The notes: generated by a model from the sequence alone, not told the origin. A stretch of DNA of 64,000 nt from Aggregicoccus sp. 17bor-14 (GCF_009659535.1 NZ_VJZZ01000007.1:62001-126000); one strand, 5' to 3'. Counted from the stretch's first letter, positions 54,061 to 61,687 are shown. A program made the numbers and translations.

Positions 54061-56319
54061 GTGCAGCCTGCCGTGAGCTCGCCCTCCCTCGCCTCCGTCG
54101 CCGTCGGCCGCCCCGTGCGCGGCGAGTTCACCTACCGCATCCCGGAGGAGCTCGCCGGTCAGCTCGCGCCCGGCCAGCGCGTGCTCGTGCCCTTCGGCCG
54201 CGGCAAGGCGCTCGGCTTCTACCTGGGCCCCGCGCAGCCGCCGCCCGAGGCGGCCCTGCCGCGCCTCAAGCCCATCCACAGCGTGCTCGAGGCCTCGCCG
54301 GCGCTGCCCGCGGATCTCATCGCGCTCCTGCGCTTCGCCGCCGAGCACTACCGCTACCCGCTCGGCGAGGTGATCCGCGGCGCGCTGCCCCCGGGCCTCT
54401 CCAAGGCCGAGGAGGAGCACGAGGCGCGCCCCGACGTGCAGCACTTCGCGCGTGCCCTCACCACCGAGGTGCCCGCGGCACTCGCGCGCGCTCCCGCACA
54501 GTCCGCCGCGCTCGCGTACCTGCTCGCGGTGGGGGGAAGGGCGCCGCTCGAGGAGGTCGCGCACGCCATCCCCGGCGCGCGCGAGACGCTGAAGAAGCTC
54601 GCCCAGCGCGGCCTCGTGCGGCTGGAGGAGGAGGTGCTGCAGCCCGGCGTGCGCGAGGGGCTCGCGCAGGGCCGCCCCGCGCAGCTCACCCCCGAGCAGG
54701 CCGCGGCCGGCCAGGTGCTCGAGGCGGCGCTGGATGCCGGCGGCTTCAAGCCCTTCCTGCTGCACGGGGTGACGGGCAGCGGCAAGACCGAGGTCTACCT
54801 GCGCGCGGTGGAGCACGCGCGCGCGCAGGGCAAGGGCAGCCTCATCCTGGTGCCGGAGATCGCCCTCACCCCGCAGCTGGTGGGGCGCTTTCGCAGCCGC
54901 TTCGGCGCGGACGTGGCCGTGCTGCACTCGGGCCTCAAGGACCGCGAGCGGCTCTTCCACTGGCAGGCGCTGCGCAAGGGCTCGGTGCACATCGCGGTGG
55001 GCGTGCGCAGCGCCATCTTCGCGCCGGTGGACCGGCTCGGCCTCGTGGTGGTGGACGAGGAGCACGACCCCTCCTTCAAGCAGGAGGAGAAGCTGCGCTA
55101 CCAGGCGCGCGACCTCGCCGTGGTGCGCGCGAAGCAGGCCGGCGCGGTGGTGGTGCTGGGCTCGGCCACCCCGGCGCTCGAGACGCTGGAGAACGCGCGG
55201 CGCGGGCGCTACGGGCTCATCGAGCTGCGCCGCCGCGTGGACGACCGCCCCATGCCCTCGGTGGAGCTGGTGGACCTGCGCATCGAGCGCCCGCGCGAGG
55301 GCGCACCCACCACCGAGGAGGCGCCGGTGCTCAGCCGGCCCCTGCTGGACGCGATGGAGCAGACGCTCGAGCGCGGCCAGCAGGTCATCCTCTTCCTCAA
55401 CCGCCGCGGCCACAGCACCTTCCTGCTCTGCGAGGTGTGCGGCCACACGCTCAAGTGCAGCGAGTGCGACGTGTGCCTCACCCACCACCGCGGGCAGGGC
55501 AAGGTGGTGTGCCACTACTGCGGCCTCGCCACCGCCGTGCCCGAGCGCTGCAGCGAGTGCACCGGGCCGCTCTTGCGCCTGGGCGTGGGCACCGAGCGCG
55601 TGGAGGCCGAGGTCGCCGAGCGGCTGCCGCGCGCGCGCGTGGCCCGGCTGGACCGCGACTCGGCCACCAGCGCCGAGCGCCTCACCGAGCTGCTCGCCGC
55701 CTTCGCGCGCCGGGAGATCGACGTGCTGGTGGGCACGCAGATGGTGGCCAAGGGGCACGACTTCCCCGGCGTCACGCTGGTGTGCGTGGTGATGGCGGAC
55801 ACCTCGCTCGCCATCCCGGACTTCCGCGCCGGCGAGCGCACCTTCCACCTGCTCACCCAGGTGGGCGGGCGCGCGGGGCGCGGCAAGGACCCGGGGCGCG
55901 TCCTCATCCAGAGCTACAACCCGGACGCCGAGCCCGTGCGCCGCGTGCTCGCCCACGACTTCGACGGCTTCAGCGAGCAGGAGCTGCAGTGGCGCAAGGC
56001 GCTCGCCTATCCGCCCTTCGCCCGCCTCGCCGCCATCCGGCTCGAGGGGGAGAACGCGGAGCAGACCGCGGGCGTCGCGCGCTTCCTCGGAGACCACCTC
56101 GCGCGCCGCATGCCGCCCCCGTCCGCCGGGGTGCGCCTGCTAGGGCCCGCGCTCGCCCCCATCAGCCGCATCCGCGGCAAGACGCGCTGGCAGCTGCTGC
56201 TCAAGGCGCCCACCCACGCCGCGCTCGCCCCCCTGCTCGCCAGCCTGGAATCGAAGCTCGACGACGTGCCCGCGAGCGTCCGGGTGGTGATCGACGTGGA
56301 CCCGGGCGCGATGCTGTAG
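54061..56319 (+). CDS. priA: Primosomal replication-restart helicase PriA
   Basis: A 752-residue PriA (GTG 54061; GTG 54073 also fits). PriA binds stalled forks and reloads DnaB. Domains: 3-prime-end-binding region (VAVGRPVRGEFTYRIPEELA), the helicase lobe with GVTGSGKTEVYLRAV and the DEEH box in VVVDEEHDPSFK, and a Cys-rich zinc module (CEVCGHTLKCSECDVCLTHHRGQGKVVCHYCGL, then CSECTG). The second lobe has VGGRAGRGKDPG. Length is typical. The giant fusion gene begins 15 bases after its stop. Confidence 0.95.
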   Translation: MQPAVSSPSLASVAVGRPVRGEFTYRIPEELAGQLAPGQRVLVPFGRGKALGFYLGPAQPPPEAALPRLKPIHSVLEASPALPADLIALLRFAAEHYRYPLGEVIRGALPPGLSKAEEEHEARPDVQHFARALTTEVPAALARAPAQSAALAYLLAVGGRAPLEEVAHAIPGARETLKKLAQRGLVRLEEEVLQPGVREGLAQGRPAQLTPEQAAAGQVLEAALDAGGFKPFLLHGVTGSGKTEVYLRAVEHARAQGKGSLILVPEIALTPQLVGRFRSRFGADVAVLHSGLKDRERLFHWQALRKGSVHIAVGVRSAIFAPVDRLGLVVVDEEHDPSFKQEEKLRYQARDLAVVRAKQAGAVVVLGSATPALETLENARRGRYGLIELRRRVDDRPMPSVELVDLRIERPREGAPTTEEAPVLSRPLLDAMEQTLERGQQVILFLNRRGHSTFLLCEVCGHTLKCSECDVCLTHHRGQGKVVCHYCGLATAVPERCSECTGPLLRLGVGTERVEAEVAERLPRARVARLDRDSATSAERLTELLAAFARREIDVLVGTQMVAKGHDFPGVTLVCVVMADTSLAIPDFRAGERTFHLLTQVGGRAGRGKDPGRVLIQSYNPDAEPVRRVLAHDFDGFSEQELQWRKALAYPPFARLAAIRLEGENAEQTAGVARFLGDHLARRMPPPSAGVRLLGPALAPISRIRGKTRWQLLLKAPTHAALAPLLASLESKLDDVPASVRVVIDVDPGAML

Positions 56320-56334: not shown

Positions 56335-59300
56335 ATGGCCGCGCCGGTCCTCCTCGTCCACGACGACATCGCCACCATCGCCGCCGTGCGCCGCCTCCTC
56401 GCGCGCGAGGGACACGAGGTCATCCTCGCCACCTCCGCCGCAGACGCGCTCATCGCCTACGGCCACCACCTGCCCGCCCTGCTGGTGCTCGCGCCCTCGG
56501 TGGAGAGCGGCCGCGGCCACGTGGTGCTGGACGAGCTCGCGCAGCACCCGGACGGCCGGCTCGCGCGCGTGCTGCTGCTCGGCGAGCCCATCCCCGGCTA
56601 CGGCGCGCCCGTGGCCCCGCTGCCCCTGGACGGCCCCGCCTTCCTCCAGCAGGTGGACTCCCTCGTGCGCTCGCCCACCGAGGCGGACGCCTGGTACGTC
56701 ATCGAGAACCGCGCCTCGGCCGAGCGCGCTCCCTACTTCCCCGCCCAGCCGCAGGACCCGTGGGCGTTGGGGGCGGCGGGAGGCGCCGAGGGCAGCAGCC
56801 ACTCCGCGCTCGCCGACGCCCTCTTCGGAGACCTCGCCCCCCTGCAGTCCGCTGACTGGGAGCTCGCCGCGACGGACAGCGGCGCCGAGCGCGAGGAGGT
56901 GCGCCGGCAGCGCGAGGCGCAGACCGCCGCCGTCGCCGACGCCGCCCTCGCGCGCGCCCACGACGAGGTGGAGGCCGAGGCGCTCGCGAGCCTCGACTCC
57001 CTGCTGGGCGCCGGTGCGGCTCCGGCGGCCGCCGTGGACGAGGACGCCCTGGACGCGCTCGAGGCCGAGGTGCGCCGCGAGGCCCACGCCCGCCGCATGC
57101 AGCGCGAGCTCGCCGAGGGTCAGCGCCCCATGGTCGGTGGCGGCCTCGAGGCGGCTCCCGCCGCATCGTCGGCGGACGGCGACCTGCCCTGGGCGGCCGA
57201 GCCGGAGCCTGCGGCGGCTGCTGCTCCTGAAGGGCTCCCGAGCATGCCGCCCGTCCGCGAGGAGCCGGGCGCACGCAGCCGCTGGGCCGCCCTCGAGGCG
57301 GAGGAGTCCGGGCTGGGGTGGAGCGCCGCAGCGCCGGCGCCGCACGGCGGCGGGTTGGCGGCGGAGCTCCCGGCGCACGAGGCGCCGGAGCCCGCGGACG
57401 CTGGCGGCTACGGCGAGCCCACGGCCCACTCGGCGCACGAAGAGGCGACGGCCTACGGAGCGTATGCCGGCGCGACGCACGAGGACGCCGCTGCCTACGG
57501 CGAGTACGCGGCCCCTTCGACGCATGGCAATGCGGGGGCCTATGGCGAGCTCGCAGACGCTTCGACAGCCGCAGATGCTGGGGCCTACGGCGAGCTCGCA
57601 GCCGCCCCGGTGCAAGCGGAGCTGGCGGCCTACGGCGACTACGCCGGCGCGACAAGCGAGCACGCCGGGACCGATGGCGAGCACTCCGCCACCGCGACAT
57701 ACGAAGACGCCGGGCGCTACGGGGAGTACTCCGCCCCCGCGACACACGAGGCGTCCGGGCCGGAGGGCGAGCTCACGGCAGAGGGGCTGATGCCCGTCGG
57801 CGTGGGGCGCTACGGCGAGCTCGCGCCAGCCTCCGCGATGCCCGACGAGCCCGGGACCGACGGAGAGTACTCGGGTCCATCGGCGAGCCCCGAGCCCGCG
57901 ACTCACGGTGCGTACGCGGACCCATCCGCGCACTCGGAGTCTGCGGCCTACGGTGCGTACGCGGACCCATCGGCGCAGCCGGAGCCCGAGGCCTACGGTG
58001 CCTACGCGGCCGAACCTCCGGCGGACCCGGAGCCCGGAACCTACGGGCTCCACGAGGCGGGAGCTCCTTCGCTCGGAGCGCCTGTCTCCGATGGCGAATA
58101 CACGTCGGGCGCGGAGGGGCTTACGGAGCCTGCCGCGTACGGAGAGTACGCGGCGGAAGTTGCGGCACCTCCGCAGTACGCGCTCGCCGACGAAGTGGGA
58201 AGCGCATCACACGGCGAACTCGAGAGCGAGGGCGCGTACGCTGCGCTCGAGGGTGACGGCGCTGCCGACGCCGCTTCGCTGTACGCGCACGGCGGCGCAT
58301 CCGGTGAGGAGCTCGCGCCGCTCGACGACGCGACGGGTGGCTTCCTCGAGCCCGTGCCGGGTACTCCGGACGGTGCATACGTGCCCGACGCCGGAACGCT
58401 CGAGGGTGAGGAAGGGCAGGGCGCGGCGCCCTTGACGGGCCCCGCGGCTCACGCGGAGCCGGCGGACGAGTTGCTCGCCTCCGATGATGCATCCGGTGAC
58501 GACGCTCACTCCGCGGACGAACTGGACGCCGAAGCGCAGGCCGGTGCCTTCCGCGCGGAGACCCCGCTCGGGTCGAGCCCCGACTTCGAGTCCGCGCGCA
58601 TGCCCGCCTCCGTAGACGTGTGGGCCGAGCGCCGGCGCTCACCGAGGGGCAACGCTGGCGGCGTTCCCGGGCGCGAAGGCCCCACGGCGCCCATGCCTCC
58701 CTCCGTGGTCAGCGTGGGCCGCAAGACCCTGCTGTTCGCGCGGCCCACGGCGCCCGCCGTGCCCTCTTCGCTGGAGAGCGCGCACGAGGCGCCTCCTGGC
58801 CACGAGGAGCTCGACGCGGGCGGCACGCAGGCCTCGTGGACCGAGCAGACGCTCGAGGCGGAGCTGGAGCGCGAGGTGGGCGCGCGCGCCCTGCACGCGC
58901 AGGCGCTGCAGGCCGCGGCCGAGGCGCGCGCGGAGGCGGAGCGCGCGCTGCAGGAAGAGGTGGAGCGGCGTGCACTCGAGGCAGAGGCCGAGGCCCGCGC
59001 CGAGGAAGAGGCTCGGGCCGAGGAGGCTCGGGCCGAGGAGGCTCGAGCCGAGGAGGCGCGCGCTGAGCAAGAGCGCACTGAGCAGGAGAGCGCCGCGCTC
59101 GAGGCCGACGCGCAGGCCGAGCGCGAGCGGGCGCTGCAGGAGGCGCACGCGCACGCCGAGCAGCAGCAGCGGCTGCAGCAGGCGGAGCGCGAGGCCCGCG
59201 CCCTCGCGGAGGCCGAGGCGGAGCGGGCGCTGCGCGCTGCGGCGGAGGCCCGCGCGGAAGCCGCCCGGGCGGACTCCCTGCGCCGGGCCGAGGAGTCCGA

Positions 59301-61131
59301 GGCGCGGCTCACCACGGAGCACGCAGCGCGCCTGGAGGCTGAGCGCGTGGCCCGTGCCGAGGCGGAGGCCCGGGCCGCTGCGGCAGCGGCAGCCCGCGCG
59401 GAGGCCGAGGCGCGCGCAGAGGCCGCCGCGGCCGCGCGCGCGGAGGCGGAGGCGCGCGCCGCGCTGGAGACGGCGGGGCGCGCCGCAGCGGAGGCCGCGG
59501 CGCAGGCGCGCGGGGACGAGGCACGCGCGCTGCGGGCGCAGGCCGAGGCACTGCAGCAGCGGGCCGACGAGGAGGCTGCCCGGCGCGCGGCGGCAGAGGC
59601 GCGCGCCGCGCAGGAGGCCGCGGCGCGCTCGGACGCGGACGCGCGCGCCCAGGAGGAGATCGCCCGCCTGAAGGCCGCGCTCGCGGCGCTGCGCCGCGAC
59701 GCCGAGGCGAAGCTGCGCGCGGCGCAGGCCAGCGTCGAGGCGCAGCGCGAGCAGCAGGGGCGCGAGGCGCTGGAGTCGGCGCGCGCCGAGGCGCTCGCCG
59801 CGGCCCAGGCCGAGGCGGAGCGGGTGCGCGAGGCGGTGCTGGCCGAGGCGGCGCACCTGCAGCAGGAGGCCCAGGCCGCGCAGGAGGCCGCGCGCCGGGA
59901 GCTCGAGCGCGCGCAGCGCGAGGCCGCGGAGGCCGAGGCCCGCGAGCGCGAGGCGCGCAGCGCGCGGGACGAGGCGCGGCGCCTGGAGGCGGAGCTGCAG
60001 CGCGAGCGCGAGGCGCTGCAGCAGTCGGGCGCATCGCCCGCGGGCGCGAAGGTGCTGAGGCTGGAGCGCGTGGCGGGCGTGGGCGTGGAATTCGCGCCGA
60101 CGGGCACGCTCGAGCGCGCACCGCTCGCGCGCCTGCTCATCCAGCTGTGCGAGGCGGGGGCGCAGGTGCGGCTCACCCTGCGTGCCCCCGAGGTGGAGCG
60201 CGTGCTGTGGCTGCGCGAGGGCGCGCTCGTGGGGGCGCTGTCCACCGCCCCGGGCGAGACGCTGCTCGAGCGCGCGCGGCGCGACGGCCTCATCGACGCG
60301 CGCCAGGAGTCCGAGCTGCGCCGGGTGCGCACCCAGGCTCCGGGTGCGCAGCTCGAGGCCCTGCGCGCGCGCGGCTACCTGCGCGACTCCGAGGTGGTGC
60401 CGCTCGCCCAGCGCTACACCGAGCAGGTGGCGCTCGACGCGCTCTCCGAGCCCCACGTGCACTACCGCCTCGCGGTGGCCGCGCCTCCTCCCGAGGTCGC
60501 CCCTGCGGCGGCGCCCCGCCCGCTGCTGCACCTGCTCGCCGAGGCGCTGCGCAACGCGCTCGCCGCCGATGCGCTGCTCGCCGAGGCTGGCGGCCTGCGC
60601 GCCGTGGCCGAGCCGCGCCCGGGCAGCCCCGCTCCCGAGGCCTTTGGCCTGCCGCCGCGCGAGCGCGCCCTGCTCGAGCGCATCGACGGCGCCCGCCCCG
60701 ACGCCGAGCGCACCCTCGAGGCGCTGCTGCGCGCGGCGGGGCTGCCCCAGGACGTCGCCCTCAAGGCGCTCGCGGTGGCGCACGCCCTGGGCCTCTTCGC
60801 CCTGCGCCCCGCGGAGCCCGGGACGGCGGACGAGGAGGCCGTCCCCACGCCGGCCGAGCTGGACGTGCAGCGACTCGAGGCCAAGTTCGAGGAGGTGCAG
60901 GACGCGGACTACTTCACCGTGCTCGGCCTGCCGCGCTCGGCGGGCGGCGAGGAGGTGCGGCGCGCCTACGCCCAGCTCGCCGAGGAGTTCCACCCCCTGC
61001 GCTTCGCCGGCCACCCGGACGTGAGCCTGCAGCAGCGGGCGCACCAGATCCGCAGCCTGCTCGCCGAGGCAGCGCGCGCCCTCGGAGATGACCGGCTGCG
61101 TCAGGAGTACGCGCGCAACCTGCTGGACTGA
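56335..61131 (+). CDS. Giant pseudo-receiver / repeat / coiled-coil / PATAN (DUF4388) / J-like protein
   Basis: A 1598-residue protein. Residues 1-105 read as a receiver fold ([17 protein letters not shown]) without the phosphoacceptor Asp (Ala in [10 protein letters not shown]) or the conserved Lys, so it is a pseudo-receiver. Residues 105-360 are acidic and low-complexity. About 359-620 is a 15-residue YG repeat array. About 839-1235 is a long Ala/Glu/Arg coiled coil. About 1245-1390 resembles DUF4388/PATAN ([29 protein letters not shown]). About 1525-1597 is a J-like domain ([24 protein letters not shown]) with HPL instead of HPD. No membrane segment. It resembles AglZ/FrzS scaffolds only in layout. 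It lies directly after priA and before def. Confidence 0.85.
57409..58200 (+). repeat. 15-residue (45-bp) degenerate tandem repeat in the giant protein
   Basis: Codons for Tyr-Gly (or Asp/His-Gly) recur nearly every 45 bases: 57409, 57454, 57496, 57541, 57586, 57631, 57673, 57718, then 57763, 57811, 57859, 57904, 57949 and 57994. Units read like AYGEYAxPxxxxxxG, with 14-16-residue variation. At least 14 copies are clear, followed by looser copies to about 58200. The array is Ala/Glu/Pro-rich and probably extended or fibrous. Confidence 0.75.
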
Positions 61132-61165: not shown

Positions 61166-61687
61166 ATGCGCCGCGACATCCTCCTCTGGCCCCATCCCCT
61201 GCTGAAGCAGAAGGCTGCCCCGGTGCTCCACGTGGACGCGCGCGTGCGCGCCCTCGTCGAGGACCTCTTCGAGACCATGTACGCCGCCGAGGGCGTGGGG
61301 CTCGCCGCCACCCAGGTGGGCGTGCTCGAGCGGGTGCTCGTGCTGGACACCACCTCGCGCCAGCCGCACCTGCAGCCGCTCGCCATGGTGAACCCGGTCA
61401 TCGTCGCCGAGGAGGGCGAGCAGGTGTACGCGGAGGGTTGTCTCTCGCTCCCCGGCGAGGTCGAGGACGTGGCGCGCGCCGCCGTCGTCACCGTGCGCTA
61501 CCTCGACCTGCAGGGGCAGGAGCAGAGCGTGCGCTGCGAGGGGCTGCTCTCGGTCGCGGTGCAGCACGAGCTGGACCACCTGGACGGCATCGTCTTCGTG
61601 GACCACGTCTCGGTGCTCAAGCGCGAGCTCATCCGCCGCCGCATGAAGCGCCGCCAGGCCGAGCGCGAGCCGCGCACCGGCACCTGA
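61166..61687 (+). CDS. def: Peptide deformylase
   Basis: A 173-residue metalloenzyme that removes the N-formyl group from nascent proteins. All three motifs are present: GVGLAATQ, EGCLSLPGE and QHELDHLDG (HExxH plus Cys metal ligands). The C-terminal basic tail (LIRRRMKRRQAEREP) is usual. It begins 34 bases after the giant gene and faces the endonuclease III gene, seven bases away. Its partner fmt is far off at 13.8 kb. Confidence 0.96.
   Translation: MRRDILLWPHPLLKQKAAPVLHVDARVRALVEDLFETMYAAEGVGLAATQVGVLERVLVLDTTSRQPHLQPLAMVNPVIVAEEGEQVYAEGCLSLPGEVEDVARAAVVTVRYLDLQGQEQSVRCEGLLSVAVQHELDHLDGIVFVDHVSVLKRELIRRRMKRRQAEREPRTGT

Follow-up and report, generated by a model that had tools for sequence, protein, structure and literature searches.

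The window, i.e., the whole 64,000-nucleotide stretch of Aggregicoccus sp. 17bor-14 DNA that was analyzed, carries at positions 56335..61131 (+) a gene for a protein of 1598 aa, with an ATG at 56335, a stop codon at 61129–61131 and no interruption between them, in agreement with the intact 1598-codon frame of the original prediction. This giant gene starts 15 bp downstream of priA (54061..56319, +) and is followed after 34 bp by def, coding for peptide deformylase (61166..61687, +); both neighboring products were confirmed with Pfam. Its parts are ordered as pseudo-receiver (REC), motif-bearing linker, species-specific repeats, Ala/Glu/Arg helix, PATAN (DUF4388), winged-helix-like stretch and degenerate J domain. 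Third-position GC is 0.905 in the giant gene vs. 0.98 in priA and def, with 0.854 in its disordered stretch and 0.984 in the receiver part, and long frames on the opposite strand were, in our judgement, taken to be shadows of GC-rich coding sequence. The 1598-aa protein is real, conserved, and uncharacterized. In Myxococcus xanthus, PriA is MXAN_1428 (PMC12288472), so the orthologue is expected at a neighboring locus number; the literature search returned no name for the giant gene and no mention of MXAN_1427, MXAN_1429, or MXAN_1430.

The pseudo-receiver occupies residues 1–125 (fold 1–116; 56335..56709, +) and was assigned by profile, AlphaFold model and structure match. Pfam Response_reg covers residues 5–72 below its cut-off (E 0.025), a profile built from seven orthologous REC domains recovered receivers of solved structure (E 2e-6), and the AlphaFold model (pLDDT 82) superposed on solved receivers with Z 18.4 (DivK), rmsd 1.8–1.9 and 112–114 residues aligned. 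The predicted receiver-like domain without a phosphoacceptor Asp was thereby confirmed, as Ala53 stands at the Asp position, the Asp pair of the HDD motif is kept, the switch Thr/Ser is replaced by Gly and the Lys is lost. Across 19 receiver sequences, the phosphoacceptor position holds Ala, in a few cases Gln or Ser, and never Asp, the switch residue is usually Gly, the Lys is absent and the HDD acidic pair is mostly kept. Family receivers also have a deletion of ~10 residues where alpha4 would lie, and the AlphaFold model is without this helix. Mean positional entropy rises from the HDD loop (0.20) through alpha2 (0.55), alpha1 (0.66), and alpha3 (0.91) to alpha5 (1.88), while in FrzS receivers the order is reversed (alpha3 0.34, alpha4 0.52, alpha1 1.55); by these values, the conserved receiver face is alpha1/alpha2 and not alpha3-beta4-alpha4. 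Pseudo-receivers are common and their mode of action is largely unresolved (PMC12632262).

A pseudo-receiver followed by a long coiled coil had been likened to the layout of the motility scaffolds AglZ and FrzS, a likeness that held for the layout and failed for the receiver clade, alpha4, and the conserved face. FrzS is the M. xanthus pseudo-receiver that acts as a polar beacon for SgmX, and AglZ is a pseudo-receiver/coiled-coil protein of gliding motility. FrzS (PDB 2gkg) resembles the giant protein in starting with a pseudo-receiver in which Ala stands at the Asp position and Gly at the switch position, and in continuing as a long helical part, but it is about 600 aa long (vs. roughly 1000–2400 aa for the giant protein in most genera), belongs to another receiver clade, has alpha4 and a different conserved face, and is without the extra PATAN and J ends. 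AglZ is likewise large and joins a pseudo-receiver to a long helix; it differs by an Arg for Asp, a clade of its own, no recognized PATAN or J domain, and a C-terminal tail, (D)DWTALVDELDK, that is absent from the giant protein. In a tree of 74 receivers, from which we claim no deeper branching given few alignment columns and some long-branch rows, the giant-protein family (100/95), FrzS (95/91), and AglZ (100/99) each formed a group, with FrzS and AglZ together at 97/82, and the genome of the window has separate FrzS and AglZ-like genes. FrzS binds SgmX via its alpha3-beta4-alpha4 face (PMC12632262). No conserved face of this SgmX type was found in the family receivers, in which alpha4 is absent and alpha3 is not the most conserved element; with alpha1/alpha2 conserved here and alpha3-alpha4 in FrzS, docking most likely differs between the two families.

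The first linker holds conserved short motifs which, like the winged-helix-like stretch described below, were missed by the original prediction. About 25 residues past the receiver lies a Trp motif, DPWALGA (56755..56775, +), with a looser orthologue consensus, E/D-x-W-R/H/Q-A-T, followed at residues 157–167 by a linear motif with the consensus SLA-x-x-LFGDL (56803..56835, +) that was evaluated in orthologue linkers against shuffled sequences. Its pattern, L[A/V/E/G/D/N]xxLF[G/D/N][D/E] (best copy SLA-x-x-LFGDL), was written after viewing the first 19 linkers, of which 13 carry it (shuffle mean 0.02), and it was present in 23 of 25 further sequences that were not used in writing it but are related (0.01 when shuffled). 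The M. xanthus orthologue (L071) has the LFGDL motif, no second place with the motif context was found in the host genome, and the motif was rejected as one common to FrzS or AglZ, as none of the FrzS and AglZ proteins checked contains it. An acidic-basic helix motif at residues 241–258 (57055..57108, +) recurs in several orthologues, its strict pattern being found in 5/19 linkers and 1/25 of the further set; both this helix and the Trp motif ahead of LFGDL are repeated less strictly among orthologues. The linker of one orthologue (L056, genome G025) has ~5 copies of an LFGDL-type motif, which suggests multivalent binding.

The Ala/Glu-rich repeat array of the original prediction does exist, in the form of ~16 AYGEY-type copies of 15 residues (residues 357–608; 57403..58158, +; 45-bp DNA period), with no counterpart in the 18 orthologues checked, and is specific to the window species. 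The Ala/Glu/Arg-rich helical spacer (residues about 851–1231; 58885..60027, +) is nearly without Gly and Pro (Ala 0.39, Glu 0.21, Arg 0.16) and varies in length among orthologues. A coiled coil of ~400 residues had been proposed here; the helical part was recovered, and the 3.5-residue hydrophobic periodicity of a heptad pattern is clear in several orthologues with little of it in the window protein, so that a weak coil or a single long helix is possible in the latter.

The C-terminal module begins with the DUF4388/PATAN domain (residues 1256–1407; 60100..60555, +), proposed earlier as DUF4388-like and placed by Pfam above the cut-off (PF14332, E 2.4e-8, 34.5 bits vs. 25). AlphaFold gave a mean pLDDT of 92 for the C-terminal 343 residues, with PATAN mostly > 90 by block. 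Between PATAN and J, a helical, winged-helix-like stretch (residues about 1397–1491; 60523..60807, +) is suggested by predicted secondary structure only. The degenerate J domain (residues 1523–1598; 60901..61128, +) is recognized by Pfam DnaJ above the cut-off (1525–1592, E 3.9e-7) and by a profile against PDB (E 7.6e-13), and its fold matches 6jmg (Z 9.9, rmsd 4.0, 82 aligned) as well as many J domains over about 70 residues (Z 8–9.6, rmsd near 2), these structure matches spanning the J domain only and not PATAN or the winged-helix-like stretch. HPL replaces HPD at residues 1553–1555, which fits the earlier wording "J-like", and HPD is absent from 26/26 J sequences, with HPL, HPM, HPA, HPE, DPL, DPI, DPV, DPR, NPL, and others instead. 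By Pfam, profiles, and structure matches, the terminal domains are thus related to REC, PATAN, and J, and from the residues at their active sites both the receiver and J domains are predicted to be catalytically dead throughout the family. The genome of the window has 18 DUF4388/PATAN matches (L160–L177), an expanded domain family to which the literature found assigns no function (a search on DUF4388 returned unrelated material only), and with so many matches PATAN alone does not imply motility.

Two other sets of proteins combine some of these domains. The order also contains REC-DUF4388-DnaJ(-TPR) proteins that form a set of their own (L064 3084–5201, −; L065 2699–5098, −; L062 5542–9183, +; L066 7511–9463, +). 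Like the giant protein, such proteins of Myxococcota have the domain order REC, DUF4388, DnaJ, and the C-terminal modules of L064 and L066 are weakly alignable with it (28–29% identity); they differ in having usually a receiver with a phosphorylatable Asp, no long spacer, and a TPR tail, and their J motifs read HPD (one), HPE, HAD, and HLD. The set possibly represents ancestors or cousins of the giant gene. Cyanobacterial PATAN response regulators (PatA, PixG, PixE, LsiR) also join PATAN to a receiver-type domain, but with PATAN N-terminal to the receiver where stated and neither a J domain nor a long spacer described. Several of them act on type IV pili, and in Synechocystis the PATAN domains of such regulators contact PilB directly (PMC10519157, PMC7690835); PATAN genes are sometimes found near mglA or mglB genes (PMC4316618). 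SopA, which came up through a mention of PATAN (PMC11580455), was rejected as a candidate (405 aa, no recognized domains).

The C-terminal module was searched in 40 related genomes, and orthologues from 25 related genomes were collected, with several frames cut off at contig ends. Nearly all adjoin def and, where the contig extends far enough, usually priA too, which places orthologues beside these genes in other myxobacteria across the order. Relatives align with the window protein over REC and over the C-terminal module, and frame and architecture are kept across genera and families. In the closest genera, identity is about 60–65% for the C-module and 67–81% for the receiver (vs. 79–82% for PriA), and in other families of the order 30–33% for the C-module. 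The ends are fixed, and the middle between them measures anything from a few hundred residues to > 1400. At E 1e-12, the receiver profile matched 99 of 195 sampled genomes of the phylum, every one in the window's class, and at E 1e-8 it matched 111 of the 147 genomes of the class, some of the weakest matches at the latter threshold being probably other receivers. The profile did not detect a receiver in several families of the order, and some genomes of the family without a receiver match do carry the C-module (G001, G006, G019). The protein occurs across Myxococcaceae and has a patchy distribution in their order. In G017, priA and the giant gene lie several kilobases apart, with other genes between them, and a similar gap is seen in G015; by eye, the frames between the two in G017 (L044 1442–5299) resemble ATP synthase gamma and TPR proteins, and such intervening frames mean that the link to priA is not obligatory.

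We favor, at about even probability, a constitutive, phosphorylation-independent cytoplasmic adaptor or scaffold that tethers the PATAN-J module to the partner of the pseudo-receiver and LFGDL. The pseudo-receiver would hold one partner through its conserved alpha1/alpha2/HDD face together with LFGDL, the spacer of variable length would extend the span between the ends and perhaps allow self-association, and a second partner would be presented by the PATAN-J end. In this module, the J fold would serve as a binding surface, since stimulation of DnaK is not expected of a J domain that lacks HPD. In favor of such an adaptor, the receiver and the J domain are dead in all sequences examined with their folds intact, conservation of the receiver comes close to that of PriA in the closest genera, the ends are fixed around a variable middle, LFGDL is retained in an otherwise diverged linker, and the conserved face is unlike that of FrzS.

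More speculatively, the second partner might belong to the surface-motility/polarity apparatus, e.g., the PilB extension motor, by analogy with the cyanobacterial PATAN proteins, an analogy that makes a connection with type IV pili or polarity plausible. The original prediction suggested a polar or cytoskeletal scaffold, a location that is likewise conjectural. The giant protein could then be a third pseudo-receiver scaffold of Myxococcia beside FrzS and AglZ, positioning this machinery with a docking face of its own, the SLA-x-x-LFGDL motif and a retired J domain as binding module, which we put forward tentatively, as possible and somewhat doubtful. Against this step stand the housekeeping neighbors priA and def, the 18 DUF4388 matches, and the lack of support from PilB co-occurrence; PilB is present in 40/40 relatives, including lineages without a detected receiver, which makes co-occurrence with type IV pili uninformative, so that the phyletic pattern cannot decide. 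The protein looks like a molecular connector, and any statement on which cell machine it connects would be a guess.

Other explanations were weighed against the same data. The degenerate J domain could bind DnaK or a genuine J protein while the rest delivers a client, making the protein a localized chaperone regulator of the Hsp70 network and not a motility scaffold. This is conceivable, as profile and structure matches show an intact J fold, a J-like end is present in every orthologue read over this part, and REC-DUF4388-DnaJ-TPR relatives exist in the order, one of them with HPD intact, but HPD, which is required for stimulation of the DnaK ATPase, is missing from all 26 sequences, and we regard the idea as unlikely. 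A housekeeping role in replication restart or in N-terminal processing of new proteins would account for the tight spacing to priA and def (15 and 34 bp) and for an adjacency to def, and usually priA, kept across the order. We hold it to be improbable, as the domains are of signaling or adaptor type, several kilobases with other frames part priA from the giant gene in two genera, and the receiver goes undetected in several families of the order, though priA and def serve general housekeeping functions.

A paralogue of FrzS/AglZ doing the same job through an SgmX-type interface would share the common layout, and Ala and Gly occupy the Asp and switch positions as they do in FrzS, but the family has its own receiver clade while FrzS and AglZ group together, alpha4 is deleted and the conserved face is alpha1/alpha2 instead of alpha3-alpha4, and we disfavor this reading as very improbable. 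Slightest of all, in our estimate, is the probability of a degenerating REC-DUF4388-DnaJ(-TPR) response regulator that lacks a strong function today and is maintained by its neighborhood: relatives with a canonical Asp and the same domain order exist and both active sites were lost, but in the closest genera the receiver falls little short of PriA in conservation, and the folds and the LFGDL motif are maintained across genera.

The adaptor or scaffold favored above would be of interest in either case. The family-wide conserved pseudo-receiver has alpha4 deleted and is fused to a second dead domain, to PATAN, and to a conserved short motif, and the loss of alpha4, the conserved alpha1/alpha2 face, and the SLA-x-x-LFGDL motif within a "disordered" part are new here. 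If the protein acts on pili or polarity, a network that has been studied well would gain a previously unrecognized component; otherwise, it would offer a clean case of two signaling/chaperone domains turned into probable binding modules. M. xanthus should provide access, with the gene expected beside MXAN_1428.

Draft-genome contigs break within the repeat/helix part of the gene (L046, L048, L049, L050, L051, L052, and L054), so that orthologues look truncated there and public annotations are probably often fragments. An orthologue with 81% receiver identity was also found in BNCN01000002.1 (L069), which is entered under the name Comamonas sp. KCTC 72670 and is most likely a mislabeled myxobacterial genome.
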